This document shows positions 2,565 through 12,789 of a DNA stretch of 33,676 nt, in pieces. The position numbers and the translations under genes are program-made. The stretch comes from Acidobacteriota bacterium (GTDB taxonomy: Bacteria; Acidobacteriota; Thermoanaerobaculia; UBA5066). The notes below the pieces were generated by a model. That model was not told where the DNA came from. It saw nothing but the letters and a program-made list of their open reading frames with translations, and searched no databases. How positions within the stretch are numbered: position 1 is the first letter of the stretch; every line of letters begins with the position of its first letter. Where the stretch lies: NCBI GenBank assembly GCA_022711615.1, contig JAKLER010000008.1:1-33676 (forward strand), given 5' to 3'.

Positions 2565-2581
2565 TCGTGATCAGCCGAATC
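2562..2581. promoter_or_regulatory. Inverted repeat over the -10/start site, possible operator
   Basis: GATTCG and CGAATC face each other across eight bases, covering the end of the -10 box and the predicted start site. It also contains TTCGTGAT, which resembles half-sites of the two ArsR-type operators further on (TTCGTGGAT near 6778, TTCTTGAT near 7195). A metal-responsive repressor site is plausible; the spacing differs from the other two operators. Confidence 0.3.
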
Positions 2582-2626
2582 GAGGGCCGGGTGCCGGCCC
2601 CTCCCTCCCGAAGAAAGGACCGTTCC

Positions 2627-2878
2627 ATGGACACCGCCCCCCGAAAGATCGAAGTCCTCGGCCCCGGCTGCACGCGCTGCAAGGAGACGTTCCGCGTCGT
2701 CTCCCACGTCGTCGAGACGGAGCGCCTCCCCTTCACCGTCGAGAAGGTCGAGGGGATGGAGCGGATGATCGAGCTCGGCCTCCTGGCCACTCCCGGCGTC
2801 GCCGTCGACGGGAAGGTGATCTTCTCCGGCCGCATCCCGAAGGCCGAGGAGCTCCGCGCGGCGCTCGCCGCCCTCTGA
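2627..2878 (+). CDS. arsE: Small thioredoxin-like CxxC protein (ArsE-like)
   Basis: 83-aa cytoplasmic redox protein of the thioredoxin_3 (small redox-active disulfide) family. Residues 11-18 are LGPGCTRC, giving a redox pair Cys15/Cys18, and TPGV at 55-58 supplies the cis-proline loop typical of the fold. The ATG at 2627 was chosen because AAAGGA sits eight bases upstream; an in-frame ATG at 2567 lies at the predicted transcript start and has no ribosome site. It heads a cluster with ArsP, ArsF and ArsG. In arsEFG clusters the small thioredoxin-like protein is called ArsE and works with ArsF in reducing nitroaromatic arsenicals. The fold is secure; the ArsE role rests on context. Confidence 0.85.
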   Translation: MDTAPRKIEVLGPGCTRCKETFRVVSHVVETERLPFTVEKVEGMERMIELGLLATPGVAVDGKVIFSGRIPKAEELRAALAAL

Positions 2879-2933
2879 GTCCCCGCGACGGGGCGTGGCT
2901 GCGGCGGACGCGGCGCCCGCCCGGAGGCCATCC

Positions 2934-4121
2934 ATGAAGGAGAGGACGAAGCTCCTCCTGATCGTCGGGTTCTTCCTCGGCGCGTATTTCCTGCCGGTCG
3001 AGAGCTCGCGCTTCCAGCGGGCCGTTCCCGAGGGGTTCGTCCTGCTCCGCGACTACGCGCGCGAGCACGTCCTCCTCTGTCTCGTCCCGGCGTTCTTCAT
3101 CGCGGGCGCGATCGGCCAGTTCGTGAGCCAGGGCGCCGTCATGAAGTACCTCGGCGCGACGGCGAAGCGCCCGGTCGCCTACGGGGTCGGCTCGGTCTCC
3201 GGCGCCATCCTCGCGGTCTGCTCCTGCACGGTCCTGCCCCTCTTCTCGAGCATCTACAAGCGCGGCGCGGGCCTCGGCCCGGCCACGGCGTTTCTCTACT
3301 CGGGCCCCGCGATCAACGTCCTCGCGATGATCCTCACGGCGCGGGTGCTGGGCCTCCAGATCGGCCTCGCCCGCGCGATCGGCGCCGTCGCCTTCGCCGT
3401 CGTCATCGGCCTGATCATGGCGGCGATCTTTCGTGAGGAGGAGGCCGAGCGCGCGAAGAACGGCCCCGACCCGTTCGCCGCGGCAGGCGCTGCCGCGAGC
3501 GGCCGGACGCGCGCGGGGTGGCAGGATGCCTCCTTCCTCGGCTCGATGGTCGCGATCCTCGTCTTCGCGAACTGGGGCGCCTCCAACCGCGCCGTCGGCT
3601 TCTTCGCGGCGGTCTACGAGGCGCACTGGTATCTCGCCGGCGCAGCCCTCGCGGCCCTCGTCTTCATGATGGTCCGCTGGTACGACCGGGACGAGCTCCG
3701 TCTCTGGGTCCTCGGCTCGTGGGAGTTCGCCAAGCAGATCCTCCCGCTCCTCCTCGGCGGCATCCTCGTCGCCGGGTGGCTCATGGGCCGCCCCGGCCAC
3801 GACTCGGGGCTGATCCCGGACGCCTGGATCGCCGGGGCGGTCGGCGGCAACTCCCTCGCCGCGAACCTCTTCGCCTCCGTGGCCGGCGCCTTCATGTACT
3901 TCGCGACGCTCACCGAGATCCCGATCCTCCAGGGCCTCCTCGGGTCCGGAATGGGCAAAGGGCCCGCGCTGGCGCTCCTCCTCGCCGGCCCGGCCCTCTC
4001 CCTGCCGAGCATGATCGTCATCAACTCGTACCTCGGGACGAAGAAGACGGTCGTCTACGTCGCCCTCGTCGTCGTCATGTCCACGATCACCGGTCTGGTC
4101 TTCGGAGCGTTCGCGTCATGA
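2934..4121 (+). CDS. arsP: ArsP/DUF318-type permease
   Basis: 395-aa inner-membrane permease of the ArsP_1 (PF03773) family; characterised members export trivalent methylated and aromatic arsenicals. Helices are evident throughout. Landmarks are VPAFFIAGAIGQFVSQGAV, the AVCSCTVLPLFSSIYKRG loop with Cys96 and Cys98, and FLYSGPAINVLAMILTARV; a second related half begins near residue 185 and contains LLAGPALSLPSMIVINSY. The ATG at 2934 has GGAGG six bases upstream and is preferred to an in-frame GTG at 2895. The stop overlaps the arsF start as ATGA. DUF318 members can have other substrates, but ArsF and ArsG next door favour an arsenical. Confidence 0.88.
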   Translation: MKERTKLLLIVGFFLGAYFLPVESSRFQRAVPEGFVLLRDYAREHVLLCLVPAFFIAGAIGQFVSQGAVMKYLGATAKRPVAYGVGSVSGAILAVCSCTVLPLFSSIYKRGAGLGPATAFLYSGPAINVLAMILTARVLGLQIGLARAIGAVAFAVVIGLIMAAIFREEEAERAKNGPDPFAAAGAAASGRTRAGWQDASFLGSMVAILVFANWGASNRAVGFFAAVYEAHWYLAGAALAALVFMMVRWYDRDELRLWVLGSWEFAKQILPLLLGGILVAGWLMGRPGHDSGLIPDAWIAGAVGGNSLAANLFASVAGAFMYFATLTEIPILQGLLGSGMGKGPALALLLAGPALSLPSMIVINSYLGTKKTVVYVALVVVMSTITGLVFGAFAS

Positions 4122-4726
4122 GCATCGAGAAGAAGCACCTCGTCACCGGGGCCCTCCTCGCCTTCGTCGCCGTCACGGGAGTCACGTTCGCGGTGAAGGA
4201 GACGCGGCACGCGCAGGCCGTCGCCGCAGCGGACGCCGCCCGGCCCGCGGAGCCCGCTCCTTCGGCCGCGATCGCAGAGCCCCCGGCGCCCCCCGCCGCC
4301 GCTCCCGTTCCGACCGCGCCTCCCGCGGCCACGCCCCGCCCCGCGCCGCCGGCCGCGAAAGCCCCCGCCTCGCGGCCCGCTCCCGAGCCGTCCACGGTCT
4401 ACGTCACCTACTTCCACACCACGGCGCGCTGCGCCTCGTGCCTGAAGATCGAGGACCTCACGAACGCCACGATGACGACGCGCTTCGCCGGCCCCATCGC
4501 CGAGAAGCGGATCGTCTGGCGCCTCGTGAACGTGGACGAGCCCGTCCACGCCCACTTCGTGAAGGACTACGGCCTCTACACGAAGTCCGTCGTCGTCTCC
4601 GAGGTGAAGGACGGCAAGGAGGTCCGCTGGAAGAACCTCGACCAGGTCTGGCACCTCCTCGGGAACCCCGGGTCGTTCCAGGACTACGTCGAGCGGGAGG
4701 TCCAGGCCTTCCTGGGCACGGCTTGA
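4118..4726 (+). CDS. arsF: ArsF-family nitrophenyl-compound nitroreductase subunit
   Basis: 202-aa membrane-tethered thioredoxin-like protein. Residues 9-25 form one transmembrane anchor, residues about 38-91 are a low-complexity Ala/Pro linker, and the C-terminal domain (92-200) opens VYVTYFHTTARCASC with Cys105/Cys108 as a CxxC pair. The domain, including VNVDEPVHAHFVKDYGLY, is recognisable as the ArsF family, named from arsEFG clusters that reduce nitroarsenicals such as roxarsone to aminoarsenicals. The linker would hold the redox domain away from the membrane, outside the cell membrane if orientation is N-in. It starts inside the arsP stop (ATGA) and ends in the arsG start (TTGA). Confidence 0.83.
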   Translation: MSIEKKHLVTGALLAFVAVTGVTFAVKETRHAQAVAAADAARPAEPAPSAAIAEPPAPPAAAPVPTAPPAATPRPAPPAAKAPASRPAPEPSTVYVTYFHTTARCASCLKIEDLTNATMTTRFAGPIAEKRIVWRLVNVDEPVHAHFVKDYGLYTKSVVVSEVKDGKEVRWKNLDQVWHLLGNPGSFQDYVEREVQAFLGTA

Positions 4727-5412
4727 CGCCCGACCTCGCTCCGGCCGCCGCGACGGCGCTCTGGCTCGGCGTCCTGACGTCGATCAGCCCCTGTCCCCTC
4801 GCGACGAACATCGCCGCCGTCTCGTATCTCGCGCGCCGCGCCGACCGCCCGCGCCTGGTCCTCCTTTCGGCCCTCTCCTACTCCCTCGGCCGCGCCCTCG
4901 CCTACGCCGCCGTGAGCGCCGTCGTCGTCCTCGGCCTCCTTTCGGTGCCCGGCGTCTCGCAGTTTCTCCAGCGCTATATGAACAAGCTCCTGGGGCCTCT
5001 CCTCGTCCTCGTCGGGATGTACCTCCTCGGCCTAATCTCGGCCGGACTCTCGACGACGGCCGGGAGCGAGGAGCTGCGAAAGAAGGCGGCCGAAGGGGGC
5101 GCCGTTGGCGCGCTCTTCCTCGGAGCCCTCTTCGCCCTCTCGTTCTGCCCGGTCTCGGCGGCCCTCTTCTTCGGCAGCCTCGTCCCGCTCTCGCTCCAGC
5201 ACGGCTCGAAGGTCGTCCTCCCCGTCGTCTACGGCTTCGGCACCGCGCTCCCGGTCGCCGTCCTCGCCCTCGTCGCCGCGGGAGGGACGAAGGCGCTCGG
5301 CGCGGCGCTGAAGAAGGTGGGGGCATTCGAGGTCTGGGCGCGGCGCCTCACCGGCGTCGTCTTCGTCGCCGTCGGGGTCTACCTCTCGGTGAGGTTCGTC
5401 TTCCTGGGCTGA
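4723..5412 (+). CDS. arsG: ArsG-family aromatic aminoarsenical efflux permease
   Basis: 229-aa polytopic membrane protein of about six helices with a CcdA/DsbD-like layout. Two half-repeats each carry a Cys-Pro in a helix: TSISPCPLATN (Cys24) and ALSFCPVSAALFFG (Cys142). ArsG is reported to export trivalent aromatic aminoarsenicals made by ArsE/ArsF. The first plausible start in this frame is TTG at 4723, overlapping the arsF stop as TTGA. No clear Shine-Dalgarno site precedes it, so coupled translation is likely. It is the last gene of the cluster and is followed by a hairpin. The CcdA-like fold alone could mean electron transfer to ArsF rather than efflux. Confidence 0.83.
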   Translation: MTPDLAPAAATALWLGVLTSISPCPLATNIAAVSYLARRADRPRLVLLSALSYSLGRALAYAAVSAVVVLGLLSVPGVSQFLQRYMNKLLGPLLVLVGMYLLGLISAGLSTTAGSEELRKKAAEGGAVGALFLGALFALSFCPVSAALFFGSLVPLSLQHGSKVVLPVVYGFGTALPVAVLALVAAGGTKALGAALKKVGAFEVWARRLTGVVFVAVGVYLSVRFVFLG

Positions 5413-5868: not shown

Positions 5869-6675
5869 ATGACGCCCGCCGGCCTGCAGACGACCCTCCT
5901 TGCCATCTCGAGGATGGACTGCCCGTCCGAGGAGCGGCTCGTCCGGATGGCGCTCGACGGAGTCGAAGGCGTCGACGACCTGAGGTTCGACCTGCGGAGC
6001 CGGACCCTCTCCGTGACCCACCGGGGAGAGCCCGGTGCGCTCCTCGCGAAGCTCGAACCTCTCGGCCTCGGGGCTCGCGTCGTCGAGTCGGTCGCCGCTG
6101 GTCCCGCGACACCCGCTGCGCCGAAGGTCCACGAGGAGGCTTCCTCCCTCCGCCTCCTCCTCGCCATCAACGCCGTCCTCTTCCTCGTCGAGAGCGTCGC
6201 CGGCTGGCTCGCGCAGTCGACCGGCCTCATCGCCGACTCCCTCGACATGCTCGCGGACGCCTTCGTCTACGGCCTCGCCCTCTGGGCCGTCGGCCGGGCC
6301 TCCGCCGCGAAGCTGCGGGCCGCGCACGCCTCCGGTGTCCTCCAGGCGCTTCTGGCGGCGGGTGTGTTCTTCGACGTCGCGCGGCGCTGGGTCACCGGGA
6401 GCGCGCCCGAGCCGCCCGCGATGATCGGGATCTCCGCCCTCGCCCTCGCCGGGAACGTCTCCTGCCTCCTCTTCCTCGCCCGGCATCGGCACGGCGGCGC
6501 ACACATGAAGGCGAGCTGGATCTTCTCGACGAACGACGTCCTCGCGAACCTCGGCGTCATGGCCGCGGGCGCTCTCGTCGCGGCGACCGGCTCCCGCCTT
6601 CCCGACCTCGTCGTCGGGACGCTCGTCGCCGCGCTCGTCCTCCTCGGAGCCGTCCGGATCCTGCGGCTGCGGTGA
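5869..6675 (+). CDS. Cation diffusion facilitator with N-terminal heavy-metal-binding domain
   Basis: 268-aa membrane transporter. Residues 10-75 are an HMA-like domain (MDCPSEER at 16-23, with the second metal-site cysteine replaced by Glu). Residues 95-268 are a CDF membrane domain with about six helices: LVESVAGWLAQSTGLIADSL, then Asp126-xxx-Asp130 in the second helix. In the fifth helix the usual His-xxx-Asp is Phe219-xxx-Asp223 (WIFSTNDVLAN), so one metal ligand of the family is missing. There is no cytoplasmic C-terminal domain. It would export a divalent metal by H+ exchange; the altered site makes the metal uncertain. The start is ATG 5869 with no visible Shine-Dalgarno site; TACGAT nine bases upstream may be a -10 box for a near-leaderless message. 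Confidence 0.82.
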   Translation: MTPAGLQTTLLAISRMDCPSEERLVRMALDGVEGVDDLRFDLRSRTLSVTHRGEPGALLAKLEPLGLGARVVESVAAGPATPAAPKVHEEASSLRLLLAINAVLFLVESVAGWLAQSTGLIADSLDMLADAFVYGLALWAVGRASAAKLRAAHASGVLQALLAAGVFFDVARRWVTGSAPEPPAMIGISALALAGNVSCLLFLARHRHGGAHMKASWIFSTNDVLANLGVMAAGALVAATGSRLPDLVVGTLVAALVLLGAVRILRLR

Positions 6676-6762
6676 AGGCCGGGGGGGGCTCCGTCCGAAC
6701 CGCGAGCGGAGCGCCGCCGGCCGACTTCCCCTCCCGCCGCGCACGATTCTCTCCGCGCACCC

Positions 6763-6790
6763 TTGACATATCAAGTTTCGTGGATATATT
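6763..6790 (+). promoter_or_regulatory. arsR promoter, giving a leaderless transcript
   Basis: Consensus TTGACA (6763-6768), a 16-base spacer and TATATT (6785-6790). Transcription would start at about 6797, essentially at the arsR ATG (6798). No Shine-Dalgarno site precedes that ATG, so the message is probably leaderless. Confidence 0.78.
6768..6787. promoter_or_regulatory. ArsR-type operator in the arsR promoter
   Basis: ATATC-N10-GATAT inverted repeat filling the spacer and overlapping both promoter boxes. Position and geometry are those of an autoregulatory ArsR site. The same arm-N10-arm geometry recurs at 7184-7203. Confidence 0.68.
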
Positions 6791-6797
6791 GGTCCCC

Positions 6798-7163
6798 ATG
6801 GCGACGACGATGTCCCGCGCCAAGCCGGTCCGGACCGGCCTCCCGCTCGCGAGGGAGGACCGCGCGGAACGTCTCGCCGACCTCTTCCACGCCCTTTCGG
6901 ACCCGACCCGCATTCGTATCCTGGCCGCCCTCCGGAACGGGGAGCAGTGCGTCTGCAACCTGACCGGGCTTCTCGTCGCCCAGCAGTCCCGTCTCTCCTT
7001 CCACATGAAGACCCTCAAGGACGCTGGCCTCGTTCGGGACCGGCGCGAGGGGCGCTGGATTCACTACTCCCTCGTCCCCGAGGCGGTGGAGGAGATCCGG
7101 GTCGCCCTCGAGGAGCTCGAGGCGGCCGCGAAGGCGTGCGCCGCGAGCTGCTGCCGCACCTGA
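6798..7163 (+). CDS. arsR: ArsR-family arsenite-responsive repressor
   Basis: 121-aa winged-helix repressor of the ArsR/SmtB family. The core is DLFHALSDPTRIRILAALRN, then the As(III)-sensing helix EQCVCNL (Cys51 and Cys53), matching the ELCVCDL motif of classical plasmid ArsR, then the recognition helix QQSRLSFHMKTLKDAGLV and the wing DRREGRWIHYSL. A C-terminal cluster KACAASCC offers extra thiols for As(III) or Sb(III). The ATG at 6798 coincides with the predicted transcript start; another in-frame ATG is at 6810. The frame is open far upstream but that stretch lies above the promoter. It controls the downstream arsM-acr3-arsC unit and itself through two operators. Confidence 0.95.
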   Translation: MATTMSRAKPVRTGLPLAREDRAERLADLFHALSDPTRIRILAALRNGEQCVCNLTGLLVAQQSRLSFHMKTLKDAGLVRDRREGRWIHYSLVPEAVEEIRVALEELEAAAKACAASCCRT

Positions 7164-7183
7164 AACCCTTTTTTTTCTTCAAC

Positions 7184-7203
7184 GTATCGAGAATTCTTGA
7201 TAC
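7184..7203. promoter_or_regulatory. Second ArsR-type operator, in front of arsM
   Basis: GTATC-N10-GATAC inverted repeat; with its central GAATTC nearly the whole 20 bases are palindromic. It lies 21 bases after arsR and ends just before the arsM ribosome site AAAGGAGA (7204-7211). TTCAAC (7178-7183) and TACAAA (7201-7206), 17 bases apart, could form an internal promoter around it, although this would start a transcript only a few bases before the ATG. A T8 run (7169-7176) sits just upstream. Confidence 0.68.
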
Positions 7204-7216
7204 AAAGGAGACGAAG

Positions 7217-8041
7217 ATGAACGACAACGAGATCCGCGACGTCGTGAGGGAGAAGTACGGGAAGGCCGCCCTCCAGGTGAAGGAGGGGCGCGCCTCGTGC
7301 TGCGGCACCGCCCCGTCGGCTTCGGGCCTCTCCTGCGACCCGATCACCTCGAACCTCTACGCCGACCACGAGAAGGAGCTCCTCCCGACGACGGCCGTCC
7401 AGGCCTCGCTCGGCTGCGGCAACCCGACGGCGCTCGCAAAGCTGGAGGAGGGCCAGGTCGTCCTGGACCTCGGCTCCGGCGGCGGCATCGACGTCCTCCT
7501 CTCGGCGAAGAGGGTCGGGCCGACCGGCAAGGCCTACGGCCTCGACATGACCGACGAGATGCTCGCGCTCGCTAGGGAGAACCAGCGACAGGCGGGGGCG
7601 ACGAACGTCGAGTTCCTGAAGGGGACGATGGAGGAGATCCCGCTCCCCGACGCGAGCGTCGACGTGATCATCTCGAACTGCGTCATCAACCTCGCGGCGG
7701 ACAAGGACCGCGTCCTGGGCGAGGCCTTCCGCGTCCTGAAGCCGGGCGGGCGCTTCGCCGTGTCCGACGTCGTGACGAAGGGGGAGATCCCCGCGCCGGT
7801 GAAGAAGAGCGTCGAGCTCTGGATCGGCTGCATCGCCGGCGCCCTCGACGAGGACGACTACGTCGCCAAACTCCGCGCCGCCGGCTTCACTGACGTCACC
7901 GTCGAGCCGACGCGCGTCTACCGGGTCGACGACGCCCGCGACTTCCTCGCCTCGGCGGGGATCGACGTCGACGCCCTCGGCGCGGAGGTCGACGGGAAGT
8001 TCCGGAGCGCCTTCGTCCGCGCGGTGAAGCCCGCCGCGTAG
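7217..8041 (+). CDS. arsM: Arsenite S-adenosylmethionine methyltransferase
   Basis: 274-aa Rossmann-fold methyltransferase that methylates As(III) using SAM in the cytoplasm. Motif I is [10 protein letters not shown] (84-93), followed by YGLDMTDEM for SAM ribose binding. Arsenic-binding cysteines appear where ArsM needs them: Cys67 in SLGCGNP, Cys155 in ISNCVINL and Cys205 in WIGCIAGAL, plus Cys28/Cys29 and Cys40 near the N-terminus. The ATG follows AAAGGAGA by five bases. It lies 53 bases after arsR and nine before acr3, in one operon. Its methylated trivalent products are toxic, and the ArsP permease in the neighbouring cluster could export them. Confidence 0.96.
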
Positions 8042-8050
8042 GAGGTTCGA

Positions 8051-9136
8051 GTGAGCGAGGCCGCCGCCCCGAAGCGCCTCAACGTCTTCGAGCGCTGGCT
8101 GACCCTCTGGGTCGCGCTCTGCATGGTCGCCGGGGTCGCCCTTGGGAAGCTCTTCCCCGGGGCGACCGACGCCGTGCGGAAGCTCGAGTTCGGCGAGGGG
8201 AGCCAGATCAACGTCGCGATCGCCGTCCTGATCTGGCTCATGGTCTACCCCATGATGCTGAAGATCGACTTCACGAGCCTCGCGGGGGTCGGGAGGCGGC
8301 CGAAGGGCCTCCTCGTCACGCTCTTCGTGAACTGGCTCGTCAAGCCGTTCTCGATGGCCTTCCTCGCCTGGCTCTTCTTCAAGAACGTCTTCGCGGCCTG
8401 GATCCCGGCCGGCCTCGCCGACCAGTACATCGCGGGGGCGATCATCCTCGCCGCGGCGCCCTGCACGGCGATGGTCTTCGTCTGGTCGTACCTGACGGAC
8501 GGGGACCCGGCCTACACGCTCGTCCAGGTCTCGGTGAACGACCTGATCATGCTCGTCCTCTTCGCGCCGATCGTGACGTTCCTCGTCGCCGGCGCGAGCA
8601 ACCTGACGGTGCCGTTCAAGGTCCTCCTCCTCTCCGTCCTCGTCTTCATCGTCATTCCGCTCGCCCTCGGGAGCCTCAGCCGGACGCTCCTGATTCGGGC
8701 GAGAGGGCGGGCGTGGTTCGAGGGGACCTTCCTCCCCGTCTTCCACCCCGTCACCGTCGTCGCGCTCCTCGCGACGCTCGTCCTCATCTTCGCGTTCCAG
8801 GCCGACAACCTCCTGACGAACTGGTTCCACGTCGTCCTGATCGCGGTCCCGCTCCTGATCCAGGTCTACTTCAACTCCGGCCTCGCCTACGGCCTGATGA
8901 AGCTCCTGAAGGTGCCGCACGCCGTCGCGGCGCCCGGCGCCCTCATCGGCGCGAGCAACTTCTTCGAGCTCGCCGTCGCGACGGCGATCGCGCTCTACGG
9001 CCCGGGCTCGGGCGCCGCGCTCGCGACCGTCGTCGGCGTCCTCGTGGAGGTGCCGGTCATGCTTTCGGTCTGCTCCTTCTGCAACCGGACGCGGGGATGG
9101 TTCCCGGCGCCCGCCGCCACGGCACCCTCCTCCTGA
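8051..9136 (+). CDS. acr3: ACR3 arsenite efflux permease
   Basis: 361-aa, ten-helix inner-membrane As(III)/H+ antiporter of the ACR3 (BASS superfamily) group. LNVFERWLTLWVALCMVAGV at the N-terminus is typical. The essential cysteine is Cys138 in ILAAAPCTAMVFVWS, within the fourth helix, and Glu305 lies in GASNFFELAVA. It starts at GTG 8051 with GGAGG (8041-8045) immediately after the arsM stop, so the two genes are tightly coupled. It exports the arsenite made by ArsC. The family assignment is not in doubt. Confidence 0.97.
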   Translation: MSEAAAPKRLNVFERWLTLWVALCMVAGVALGKLFPGATDAVRKLEFGEGSQINVAIAVLIWLMVYPMMLKIDFTSLAGVGRRPKGLLVTLFVNWLVKPFSMAFLAWLFFKNVFAAWIPAGLADQYIAGAIILAAAPCTAMVFVWSYLTDGDPAYTLVQVSVNDLIMLVLFAPIVTFLVAGASNLTVPFKVLLLSVLVFIVIPLALGSLSRTLLIRARGRAWFEGTFLPVFHPVTVVALLATLVLIFAFQADNLLTNWFHVVLIAVPLLIQVYFNSGLAYGLMKLLKVPHAVAAPGALIGASNFFELAVATAIALYGPGSGAALATVVGVLVEVPVMLSVCSFCNRTRGWFPAPAATAPSS

Positions 9137-9144
9137 GGAGCCCG

Positions 9145-9573
9145 GTGAGGAAGAAGGTCCTCGTCCTCTGCACCGGGAACTCCTGCCGCTCGCAGATGGG
9201 CGAGGGGTGGCTTCGGCACGACCTCGGCGAGAGCGTCGAGGCGTTTTCCGCCGGCACGACGCCGTCCTTCGTCCACCCGCGGGCGATCCAGGTCATGGCG
9301 GAGGCGGGCGTCGACCTCTCTACTCACTCGAGCAAGGGGGTCGAGAGCCTCCGCGGGGTCGCGTTCGACCTCGTCGTCACCGTGTGCGACTCGGCGCGCG
9401 AGGCATGCCCGGTCTTCCCGGGCGCGAAGCGGACCGTCCATCACGCCTTCGAGGACCCGGCCCACGCCGGGACCGGGAACGAGGCGCTCCCCGCGTTCCG
9501 CCGTGTCCGGGACGAGATCCGGTCCGTCCTCGTCCCGCTCGTCGCACGGGAGCTGGGGCTGCCCGGGCGCTGA
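9145..9573 (+). CDS. arsC: Arsenate reductase, low-molecular-weight phosphatase type
   Basis: 142-aa cytoplasmic reductase of the thioredoxin-coupled class that turns As(V) into As(III) for ACR3. The catalytic P-loop is CTGNSCRS with nucleophile Cys9 and Arg15; the shuttle cysteines are Cys81 and Cys88 in VTVCDSAREACPVF, and Asp-Pro at FEDPA supplies the general acid. The start is GTG 9145 with GAGGAG (9135-9140) overlapping the acr3 stop. The frame is open upstream but only as a shadow of acr3. It is the fourth gene of the ars operon. Confidence 0.95.
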   Translation: MRKKVLVLCTGNSCRSQMGEGWLRHDLGESVEAFSAGTTPSFVHPRAIQVMAEAGVDLSTHSSKGVESLRGVAFDLVVTVCDSAREACPVFPGAKRTVHHAFEDPAHAGTGNEALPAFRRVRDEIRSVLVPLVARELGLPGR

Positions 9574-9614
9574 GGCCCCGCGATGAGGCGACGCCGCGCG
9601 GAAGGGGCGGGCCG

Positions 9615-10868
9615 GTGACGGAGCAGACGCGAATCGTCTCCTTCCGCGTCGACGCCGACGGCCGCCTCGTCGCCGACCCGTCCGACTCCCGGCAGCTCGG
9701 CCTCCGGCCGGGCGACGCGCTCCGGATCGAGACGGGCGACCCGCTCTGGGTCGCCCGACGCCCGGTCTCGAACCTCGCGCGCGTCTACGTCGAGCCGACG
9801 AACGCCTGCAACCTGACCTGCTCGACGTGCGTGCGGAACGTCTGGAGCGCCGAGTCGGGCTTCATGACGGAGGAGACGTTCGACGCCCTCCTCCGCGGGC
9901 TCGCGGCGCTCCCCCGTCCCCCGGTCCTCTTCTTCGGCGGCTTCGGCGAGCCGCTCGCGCACCCCCGGATCCTCCCGATGCTGGAGGAGGCCCGCAGCGC
10001 CGGCGCCGAGGTCGAGCTCATCACGAACGGCATCCTCCTCGGCGACGAGGTCCGTCGCGCCCTCGTCTCGCTCGGGCTTCGCCGGCTCTGGGTCTCGATC
10101 GACGGGGCGACGCCCGCCGCGTATCGCGACGTTCGGATCGGCGACGCCCTCCCGGAGATCCTGGCGAACCTCGCCGCGTTCCGGGCGCTGCGCGAGGCCT
10201 CGCCCGGCCGGAGCACCCGGCTCGGCCTCGTCTTCGTCGCGATGCGCCGGAACCTCGGGCAGCTCCCCGACGTCGTGAAGCTGGGACGCGCGGCGGGAAT
10301 GGACCGCCTCCTCGTGACGAACGTCCTCGCGTACACCGACGACCTGAAGGACGAGACGCTCTACGACGAGGGGCTCGCCCCGGGCGACGGGGACTCCCTG
10401 GAGAGGACGGCGATCCTCCTCCCGCGCCTCGAGCCGTCGGGTGCCGTCCGCGAGGCCCTTGCCGCCGTGGTCGACGGCGGACCGGTCGACCTGCGCCCTC
10501 GCCTCTCCGCCGTCCGCGGTCGCAACTTCTGCCCCTTCGTCGAAAGGGGGACGACTTCCGTGAGGTGGGACGGGACCGTCAGCCCCTGCCTCGCCCTCCT
10601 CTACGACCACGACTACTGGCTCGGAGACCGCCGGCGGCACTCGCACGCCAGCGCCGTCGGGAACGTCCGGGACAGGAGCCTCGCCGACGTCTGGGCCGAC
10701 CCCGCGTACGTCGAGCTCCGGCGGCGCGCCCAGGCGTTCGACTTCTCGCCGTGCAGCTCCTGCAACACGTGCGAGATGGCCGACGACAACTCCCGCGACT
10801 GCTCGGGCTCTCCCCTCCCCGCCTGCGGCGGCTGCCTCTGGGCGCAGGGGCTGATCCAGTGCCCGTGA
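9615..10868 (+). CDS. Radical SAM/SPASM protein with AbrB-like N-terminus
   Basis: 417-aa iron-sulfur enzyme. Residues 5-48 look like an AbrB-type beta hairpin (GRLVADPSDSRQLGLRPGDA). The radical SAM core begins at PTNACNLTCSTC (Cys65, Cys69, Cys72 holding the SAM-cleaving cluster), with FFGGFGEP at 107-113. The C-terminal SPASM region has Cys306, 325, 380, 383, 386, 396, 404, 407 and 416, enough for two auxiliary clusters, ending CGGCLWAQGLIQCP. This architecture most resembles the maturase linked to tungsten-dependent aldehyde ferredoxin oxidoreductases, but no such oxidoreductase is present here. It starts at GTG 9615, 41 bases after arsC on the same strand, so it may be co-induced by arsenic. 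Substrate unknown; it is not ArsS-like. Confidence 0.82.
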   Translation: MTEQTRIVSFRVDADGRLVADPSDSRQLGLRPGDALRIETGDPLWVARRPVSNLARVYVEPTNACNLTCSTCVRNVWSAESGFMTEETFDALLRGLAALPRPPVLFFGGFGEPLAHPRILPMLEEARSAGAEVELITNGILLGDEVRRALVSLGLRRLWVSIDGATPAAYRDVRIGDALPEILANLAAFRALREASPGRSTRLGLVFVAMRRNLGQLPDVVKLGRAAGMDRLLVTNVLAYTDDLKDETLYDEGLAPGDGDSLERTAILLPRLEPSGAVREALAAVVDGGPVDLRPRLSAVRGRNFCPFVERGTTSVRWDGTVSPCLALLYDHDYWLGDRRRHSHASAVGNVRDRSLADVWADPAYVELRRRAQAFDFSPCSSCNTCEMADDNSRDCSGSPLPACGGCLWAQGLIQCP

Positions 10869-10875
10869 CGCTCCC

Positions 10876-10896
10876 CGGACGCGGCGCCTCCGTCCG
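10876..10896. terminator. Weak hairpin between convergent genes
   Basis: CGGACG, a nine-base loop, then CGTCCG, in the 46-base gap between the convergent radical SAM gene and the ABC exporter gene. Six pairs and no T tract; a possible terminator for both. Confidence 0.33.
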
Positions 10897-10914
10897 CCCC
10901 GCCTCGGCCCGCCC

Positions 10915-12789
10915 TCAGGCCTCCGCGACGAGCGCGTCCTCGGCGATCGCCGCCTCGTCGAGAGGGGGCGCCGCCGCGCGAGGCGGCGCCCCCCACGGCT
11001 CGCGTTCGCCGATCTGCTGGCGCCACATCGCGTAGTAGAGGCCCCGCCTCTCGACGAGCTCGTCGTGGCTCCCCGTCTCGACGATCCGCCCGCGCTCGAG
11101 GACGTGGATCGTCCCGGCGTGCGCGATCGTGCTGAGGCGGTGCGCGATCAGGATCACCATGTGCTGCCGGCTCCCCGAGACCTCGCGGACCGACGCGGCG
11201 ATCTCCTGCTCGGTGATCGAGTCGAGCGCCGACGTCGCTTCGTCGAAGATGAGGAGGCGGGGGCGGCGCAGGAGCGCGCGGGCGATCGAGAGGCGCTGGC
11301 GCTCCCCGCCGGAGACCCGGAGGCCCGACTCCCCGACGCGCGTGTCGAGCCCCTGGCCCGAGCGCGTCAGGAGCGGCGTCGCCGACGCGCGCCGGAGGGC
11401 CTCGAGCATCTCCTCGTCGGTCGCGTCCTCTTTCACGAGCTGGAGGTTCTCGCGGATCGTCCCCGAGAAGAGCTGCGGGTCCTGGGTCACGAACCCGATC
11501 TGCCGTCGCACGCGGTTGTAGCGCAGCTCGTGGATCGGCACGCCGTCGATCGTGACGACCCCCGCGGTCGGCCGGTAGAGCCCGACGAGGAGCTTGACGA
11601 GCGTCGACTTCCCGGAGCCCGACGGGCCGACGAACGCGATCGTGTCGCCGAGCCTCGCCTCGAACCCGATGTGGTCGAGCGCATCCTCCGCGGCGCCGCG
11701 GTAGCGGAACGAGACGTCCTCGAAGCGGAGGCTCTCGATCTCACCGACGTCGACCGGCTCCTCGGGCCGCTCCTCGACCGGTGTCGCCATCAGACGCCCG
11801 AACGCCGCGAGCGAGGCCTCGGCCTCCCGGTGGTTCAGGAGGACGTTCCCCATCTGCTGGAGCGGCCCGAAGATCGTGTTCAGGATGAACTGGAACGCGA
11901 TCAGCTCGCCCGGCGAGAGCGCCTTGCGGAAGATGAGCCAGAGGAGGATGAAGAGGATCGACTGCCGGAGGACGTTGATGATCGCCGCCTGCAGGAACGC
12001 GAGGCCCCGCACGCGCTTCACCTTCGCCATCTCGAGGTCGAAGATCCGCTGCGTGTAGCCCGAGAGGCGCCGGAACTCGGCCCGGGTGAGGCCGAGGCTC
12101 TTGACGAGCTCGATGTTCCGGAGCGACTCGGTGATCGCCCCCGACATCCGCGTCGTCTCGCGGACGACCTGCCGCTGGACGGTCTTGATCCGGCGGCTCA
12201 GGAGACCGGTCAGCGAGCCGAGGACGAGGACGCCGATCCCGAACGCCGGTATCAGGAGCCAGGAGCGGGTGACGCCGTACCAGACGAGGAAGCCGACCCC
12301 GACGAGCGAGGAGTAGAGGACGGTCACCGAGGCGTTCACGAACCGCTCGGTGTCGGTCCGCACCTTCGTCAGGAGCGCCATCGTCTCGCCGCTCGGCCGC
12401 TCCTCCATCTCCTGGAACGCGAGCCGAAGGGTCCGACGGAGGCCGTCGTCGAACATCGCCCGCCCGATGCTCTGGACGAGGAGACGCATCACGTATTCCT
12501 GGAGGGCCGAGGCGAGACGAGCGGCGAGGGCGACCCCCGCCGCGACGAGGAGCCAGAAGAGCGCGCCGCGGACGAGCTCGGACTCGGGACGGCCGCCGGG
12601 CGCGAGGACGTAACGGTCGACGATGAGGCCGAAGATGAGGGGGTCGACGAGCGTCAGGACCTGGGCGAGCCCGGCCAGGAGGAGCGTGAGCGCCACGAGC
12701 CCGCGGTGCGGCCGCAGGTAGCGGCCGAGGATCGCCATCGGGGTCTCGCGGCCGGACGGGTTCGCGCTCGGGCGGGCCATCGCGAGCAA
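10915..12789 (-). CDS. ABC exporter half-transporter (MsbA/MdlB type)
   Basis: 624-aa fused permease-ATPase that would dimerise in the inner membrane to export a lipid, drug or peptide. Residues about 28-310 are the six-helix membrane domain. The ATPase has Walker A GPSGSGKST (388-396), Q-loop FVTQDPQLF, signature VSGGERQRL (492-500), Walker B LLIFDE (512-517) and switch His550 in LIAHRLST. TTG at 12789 is supported by GGAG seven bases upstream; ATG at 12780 is the alternative, too far from that site, and ATG at 12738 would also leave the membrane domain intact. It follows the histidine kinase by 33 bases on the same strand, so the two may be co-transcribed. Confidence 0.93.
   Translation of the reverse strand: MLAMARPSANPSGRETPMAILGRYLRPHRGLVALTLLLAGLAQVLTLVDPLIFGLIVDRYVLAPGGRPESELVRGALFWLLVAAGVALAARLASALQEYVMRLLVQSIGRAMFDDGLRRTLRLAFQEMEERPSGETMALLTKVRTDTERFVNASVTVLYSSLVGVGFLVWYGVTRSWLLIPAFGIGVLVLGSLTGLLSRRIKTVQRQVVRETTRMSGAITESLRNIELVKSLGLTRAEFRRLSGYTQRIFDLEMAKVKRVRGLAFLQAAIINVLRQSILFILLWLIFRKALSPGELIAFQFILNTIFGPLQQMGNVLLNHREAEASLAAFGRLMATPVEERPEEPVDVGEIESLRFEDVSFRYRGAAEDALDHIGFEARLGDTIAFVGPSGSGKSTLVKLLVGLYRPTAGVVTIDGVPIHELRYNRVRRQIGFVTQDPQLFSGTIRENLQLVKEDATDEEMLEALRRASATPLLTRSGQGLDTRVGESGLRVSGGERQRLSIARALLRRPRLLIFDEATSALDSITEQEIAASVREVSGSRQHMVILIAHRLSTIAHAGTIHVLERGRIVETGSHDELVERRGLYYAMWRQQIGEREPWGAPPRAAAPPLDEAAIAEDALVAEA

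Follow-up and report, generated by a model that had tools for sequence, protein, structure and literature searches.

The window, i.e. the whole 33,676-nt stretch of DNA under analysis, carries an ars operon in which the genes arsR, arsM, acr3 and arsC are followed by a gene for a radical SAM/SPASM protein (rSAM below). The features relevant to this operon are the following.

2567–5412, forward: second arsenic-type cluster with an ArsE-like thioredoxin, an ArsP-family permease, a small secreted protein and a CcdA/DsbD-like protein (PF03773; DsbD_2; thioredoxin-like homologs)
6763–6790, forward: promoter-like site upstream of arsR, TTGACA-16-TATATT (consensus scan; 0.0 expected in shuffles)
6798–7163, forward: arsR, ArsR/SmtB repressor (NF033788, above cut-off)
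7184–7203, no strand: palindrome GTATCGAGAATTCTTGATAC between arsR and arsM (inverted repeat I6)
7217–8041, forward: arsM, arsenite methyltransferase (NF008823, above cut-off)
8051–9136, forward: acr3, arsenite efflux permease (TIGR00832, above cut-off)
9145–9573, forward: arsC, thioredoxin-type arsenate reductase (TIGR02691 family match, 118 bits, below cut-off)
9615–10868, forward: rSAM, radical SAM/SPASM gene, 417 aa (PF04055, PF13186; TIGR04317 below cut-off; 95% ortholog L031)
9615–9770, forward: N-terminal AbrB/MazE-type hairpin, residues 1–52 (AlphaFold2; PF04014 in relatives)
9807–9830, forward: CX3CX2C SAM-cleaving cluster motif, Cys65/69/72 (invariant in alignments)
10530–10862, forward: SPASM region with nine conserved cysteines, Cys306 to Cys416 (PF13186; conserved columns)
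10752–10772, forward: C380-xx-C-N-T-C386, clade signature C-N-S/T-C (residues along the tree)

The initial annotation had described rSAM as the fifth gene of an ars operon, located on the same strand 41 bases after arsC with no terminator or promoter in between. The gene order and the arsC stop at 9573 agree with this description; a scan of positions 6600–11,000 placed all promoter-like sites upstream of arsR (6746–6790) and detected no terminator-like sites. The palindrome GTATCGAGAATTCTTGATAC at 7184–7203 could serve as an operator for ArsR. Many long ORFs that overlap the ars genes, on either strand, were disregarded as high-GC shadow frames. The second cluster (2567–5412) lies just upstream of the operon; a similar set is present in loci L142, L145, L151 and L152, and in L142, L152 and others this gene set adjoins rSAM.

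The rSAM ORF is intact, with a GTG start, and a 95%-identical ortholog (L031) in a second genome of the genus has its start, an ATG, at the same position; the ORF is a genuine gene. Its product matches the Pfam families Radical_SAM (PF04055, 6e-12) and SPASM (PF13186, 9.2e-14). The cluster-binding motif and nine C-terminal cysteines noted in the initial annotation were found at residues 65–72 and 306–416; alignments of 59–80 homologs show no or almost no variation at Cys65/69/72 and at the nine other cysteines (306/325/380/383/386/396/404/407/416). Residues 383–386 read C-N-S/T-C in the clade of the window protein vs C-G-G-C in most relatives. The AlphaFold2 model (mean pLDDT 86; one row from a plasmid record was left out of the input alignment) combines a radical SAM barrel with a SPASM tail and has, at its N-terminus, a beta-beta-alpha-beta-beta element (strands 10–12 and 18–20, helix 22–28, strands 37–40 and 45–48). 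This element corresponds to the AbrB-like hairpin of the initial annotation, whose description of the gene and protein is thus confirmed. Among 59 family members, 27 match the Pfam model MazE_antitoxin (PF04014, AbrB superfamily) at E < 0.05, although the window protein itself has no match at this threshold.

Gene neighborhoods of rSAM homologs

Homologous loci were collected from GTDB contigs and from genomes of the same phylum; after L153 was dropped (it is the contig of L031), 84 loci remained. Labels were assigned from tblastn hits of arsenic and AOR markers at a distance of up to 8 kb, and a locus was called ars-linked if it had strict ars markers (Acr3, ArsM, ArsP, ArsC, ArsA/D) or the ars-associated cassette described below. 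By this definition 43 of the 84 loci are ars-linked (two of the 43 also have AOR/MoaD), 13 have AOR or MoaD only, five have only ArsR or an ArsE-type thioredoxin, and 23, many of them on short contigs, have neither ars nor AOR neighbors. Such a neighbor table had been proposed in the initial annotation along with the outcome that would speak against an arsenic role, namely homologs always beside AOR genes and never beside ars genes. With 43 ars-linked loci vs 13 with AOR/MoaD only, that outcome is excluded and the rSAM relatives form a recurrent ars-associated subfamily.

The gene acr3 is found within 8 kb in 28 of the 84 distinct loci, whereas ∼0.4% is expected by chance; the linkage is therefore not accidental. 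It recurs in Acidobacteriota, where nearly all rSAM copies lie in ars clusters, as well as in Chloroflexota, Spirochaetota and Actinomycetota. Four Chloroflexota loci (L032, L034, L038 and L070) are minimal arsR-acr3-rSAM operons with gaps of 37–95 bp, and the gene upstream of rSAM is co-directional in 39 of 46 loci. Most ars-linked loci have no ArsM within 8 kb.

In 15 ars loci from Chloroflexota and Acidobacteriota (L033, L043, L045, L048, L050, L052, L053, L063, L064, L137, L139, L140, L145, L148 and L155), rSAM is accompanied by a cassette of a GcvH-like protein, two DGC proteins, an OsmC-like protein and an ArsE-type thioredoxin; in some of these loci one member is missing or the contig breaks off. 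The GcvH-like protein has an invariant lipoyl-type lysine in the motif ET[IV]K, and the OsmC-like protein has two conserved cysteines. Dihydrolipoyl groups are a classical target of arsenite, which makes carrier-bound arsenite an attractive guess. The cassette is absent from the window genome, and a test for DGC proteins was negative for this genome and for 10 of 11 others, which mostly belong to the window clade, so rSAM must be able to work without the cassette. We know of no description of an ars-linked cassette of this kind in two phyla, and none was found in the open-access literature. One of the cassette loci also encodes an Fe-S protein and a dihydrolipoamide dehydrogenase-like protein. 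At L033:543–1967, the gene flanked immediately by arsR on one side and the GcvH-like gene on the other is dihydrolipoamide dehydrogenase-like, suggesting that this arsenic operon has a lipoyl redox pair of its own. Locus L143 has the cassette too, together with AOR.

Relation to known families and origin of the gene

With its PF04055 core carrying CX3CX2C and its cysteine-rich SPASM domain, rSAM belongs to the radical SAM/SPASM superfamily. The initial annotation had named the tungsten-cofactor maturase as the closest architecture. Indeed, the best NCBIfam model is TIGR04317 (W_rSAM_matur), which is matched over its full length (query residues 53–417 vs profile positions 2–349) and has in common with rSAM the SPASM architecture and the cysteine-rich C-terminal tail; membership, though, does not follow, as the score of 255 bits is below the curated cut-off of 380 bits. 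All five relatives that were scored, whether ars-linked or AOR-linked, fall short of this cut-off too, and a search of 297 genomes of the phylum gave no protein above it. The neighborhoods differ too: the window rSAM has ars genes as neighbors, while an AOR-family gene (often with MoaD), as expected for TIGR04317, is present neither in the window, where the initial annotation had likewise seen no oxidoreductase, nor next to the window clade. Judged by its score, rSAM makes a subfamily beside TIGR04317, related but distinct. The second-best model, TIGR04311 (rSAM_Geo_metal, a putative metalloenzyme maturase; 215 bits), has a similar radical SAM core but matches rSAM in separate pieces and misses its cut-off of 400 bits; a plasmid example of TIGR04311 adjoins chromate-resistance and MFS genes.

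Formation of C–As bonds by radical SAM enzymes is established for ArsS, which acts with ArsM on arsenicals in arsenosugar biosynthesis (adenosylation of arsenic), and for ArsL, which forms the C–As bond of arsinothricin (PMC12159101, PMC8552651). ArsL is a 428-aa protein encoded in an ars operon next to arsM, with CX3CX2C at Cys194–201 and only three conserved cysteines (PMC8552651). Thus, both ArsL and rSAM are radical SAM proteins with CX3CX2C from an arsenic operon near arsM, but the motif of rSAM is at residues 65–72 instead of ∼194 and is supplemented by the nine additional conserved cysteines. The arsenosugar (ArsS) model is not among the best 25 NCBIfam models listed for rSAM, a list reaching down to 32 bits. 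The initial annotation had set rSAM apart from both enzymes; for ArsL this is supported by motif position and cysteine count, and the architecture of ArsS probably differs too.

The top PDB fold matches of the rSAM model are BlsE, SuiB, DesII and SkfB (E ∼1e-13, TM 0.47–0.55); their overall fold is alike, yet identity is 14–20% and the substrates and neighborhoods are different. A plasmid search with the rSAM protein gave no close relative, the best hit being a Thermovirga protein (∼29% identity) whose gene follows AOR and MoaD. Our search of the open-access literature on radical SAM/SPASM proteins and arsenic, the TIGR04317 family and the cassette genes returned nothing on the rSAM enzyme.

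In a maximum-likelihood tree of 78 proteins, the window rSAM falls in a starred clade of eight, all ars-linked. The 14-row clade around it, likewise starred, has 11 ars-linked and no AOR-linked members; the three unlabeled rows are L040, L044 (ArsR as the sole marker) and L071 (contig end). AOR-linked members are confined to one Chloroflexota region, except for the Thermovirga outgroup and one Syntrophaceae copy. The ars and AOR labels require five changes on the tree vs a mean of 11.8 for shuffled labels (none of 500 shuffles was as low).

The host is an acidobacterium, yet its rSAM groups with ars-linked Chloroflexota proteins and not with the main clade of Acidobacteriota. In a sister genus, arsR-arsM-acr3-arsC are likewise present (77–90% identity) but rSAM is not, and most congeners and family members are without the gene. 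The Chloroflexota grouping, taken together with the sister-genus operon, points to horizontal gain into an existing ars operon, and rSAM looks like an add-on acquired from an ars-linked lineage. When ars-linked and AOR-linked proteins were compared, R70, E79, D319 and Y/H240 appeared as tendencies of the ars-linked group, although their distribution is mostly explained by the tree. In two ars-linked copies that branch within the AOR clade, E79 and D319 are present but A240 and W299 are still of the AOR type; consequently, we claim no substrate-determining residue.

Role in the arsenic response

The initial annotation had left two options for rSAM, an ars-induced maturase and an arsenical-modifying enzyme. 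What both have in common, the association with arsenic, is strongly supported by the labeled loci, while maturation of an AOR enzyme has been weakened. The gene is encoded in ars operons across lineages, as seen in both the 43 loci and the tree, and rSAM is probably a dedicated arsenic-response enzyme rather than a stray cofactor-assembly gene; we put the probability of dedication to the arsenic response at about 80%. That the enzyme acts directly on an arsenical is a more cautious claim, to which the comparative evidence lends somewhat less than even odds. In such a scheme, arsenite would release ArsR and the genes arsR-arsM-acr3-arsC-rSAM would be induced as one transcript. A [4Fe-4S] cluster on CX3CX2C would cleave SAM to the canonical 5′-deoxyadenosyl radical, and auxiliary SPASM clusters would hold or oxidize the substrate. 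The most likely substrate would be a trivalent arsenical, either arsenite or methylarsenite from ArsM, and the product an organoarsenical of lower toxicity or easier to export.

Direct action on an arsenical is favored by the predominance of ars-linked loci, by the all-ars composition of the window clade and the five label changes, by the minimal operons, by the add-on pattern and by the precedent of ArsS and ArsL. Further, the other protein partners considered for rSAM are missing from genomes of the clade, and the gene has no conserved ORF for a small peptide beside it (what recurs there is limited to Acr3 shadow ORFs and the ArsE-type thioredoxin). On the other side, the sequence and SPASM architecture resemble those of protein and peptide maturases, the catalytic cysteines are all common to AOR-linked relatives, ArsM is near only a minority of ars-linked loci, AOR co-occurs with rSAM in the phylum, and rSAM evolves faster than its operon partners (dN/dS between two species of the genus of ∼0.54 vs 0–0.35).

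In our assessment, it is unlikely that rSAM is induced by arsenic to mature or repair an oxidoreductase of the AOR family (tungsten/molybdenum pterin) whose gene lies elsewhere, a function that would be called for once arsenite has damaged cofactors dependent on thiols or pterin. Such a role fits the identity of the closest named family, the occurrence of some Chloroflexota relatives in AOR-MoaD-DUF1952 operons and the position of the Thermovirga gene, as well as the presence of two AOR genes in the host genome (G000:C446 and C28; L158 and L159). These host AORs, however, are of a 735-aa subtype ∼25% identical to the AORs adjoining the rSAM family, and one of them has a 90% ortholog in a congener without rSAM. 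In four genera with both carriers and non-carriers of rSAM (g1, g65, g67 and g69), all non-carriers keep AORs. Because AORs persist within genera without rSAM, maturation in trans is weakened. Nor does the window clade have MoaD or AOR neighbors. Finally, no AOR was found in the genomes of L032 and L084, whose rSAM copies are ars-linked; the several tRNA synthetases looked for were all found there, making gross incompleteness unlikely.

At the genome level, AOR is present in 27 of 28 rSAM carriers vs 73 of 269 non-carriers among the 297 Acidobacteriota genomes (p ∼3e-13, confounded by relatedness), and in 40 of 43 genomes reached through the loci. As an anaerobe control we used CODH, which replaced the pyruvate oxidoreductase PF01558, present in 275 of 297 genomes and hence uninformative. 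CODH is itself found in 17 of 28 carriers vs 24 of 269 non-carriers, which shows that much of the AOR co-occurrence is common to an anaerobe marker. Among the CODH-positive genomes AOR still occurs in all 17 carriers vs eight of 24 non-carriers, figures likewise confounded by relatedness. The phylum-level pattern thus leaves an AOR-related role conceivable, with a low probability.

Alternatively, rSAM could be a maturase of another arsenic-response protein (GcvH-like, DGC, OsmC-like, Acr3 or a peptide), the installed modification making it better at binding arsenic or at its redox function. Proteins and peptides are common targets of SPASM enzymes, the best fold matches include SuiB, SkfB and anSME, and the 15 cassette loci, one with a dihydrolipoamide dehydrogenase-like gene, would offer candidate substrates. 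Yet the absence of DGC from the window genome and from 10 of 11 others indicates that the cassette is not a general substrate, and minimal loci consist of arsR, acr3 and rSAM only. For a RiPP maturase one would look to a precursor peptide, and no conserved precursor gene or other conserved short ORF was found near rSAM. We consider such a protein substrate improbable. That rSAM is a radical SAM gene of unrelated function that lies behind arsC by chance would suit the 23 loci without ars or AOR neighbors, the lack of the gene in most congeners and family members and its comparatively high dN/dS, but is very unlikely given ars linkage in 43 loci from four phyla, an expectation of ∼0.4% per locus for acr3 alone and the conserved short co-directional gaps.

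We return to rSAM as an enzyme acting on arsenicals. Two radical SAM routes to organoarsenicals are known, those of ArsS and ArsL. A bolder version, which we offer tentatively and hold to be rather doubtful, is that the subfamily represents a third lineage of radical SAM enzymes by which C–As bonds are formed or cleaved, much more widely distributed than the other two; it would have arisen from a tungsten-maturase-like ancestor and would operate in uncultured anaerobes of several phyla, in many lineages together with the lipoyl-carrier/DGC/OsmC/thioredoxin cassette, whose dihydrolipoyl would hold arsenite. If rSAM does act on arsenicals, it would add an organoarsenical route uncounted in methylation-based models of the arsenic cycle, and proteins that owe their annotation as tungsten-cofactor maturases to similarity may have a role involving arsenic. 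In any case, rSAM is an uncharacterized enzyme whose relatives recur in arsenic operons of unrelated anaerobes, mostly uncultured bacteria of several phyla. The gene is repeatedly present or absent in otherwise similar ars operons, so the question is directly testable by addition or removal of one gene.

Two observations concern the composition of the ars regions. Chloroflexota ars clusters contain a second, divergent radical SAM/SPASM gene (∼350–400 aa) at L038:1316–2353 and L070:14418–15494, so that one arsenic region can hold two radical SAM genes. At L137:12164–13158, two half-length ORFs for ArsP-family permeases (160 and 171 aa) lie side by side, each covering about half of the ArsP_1 profile.
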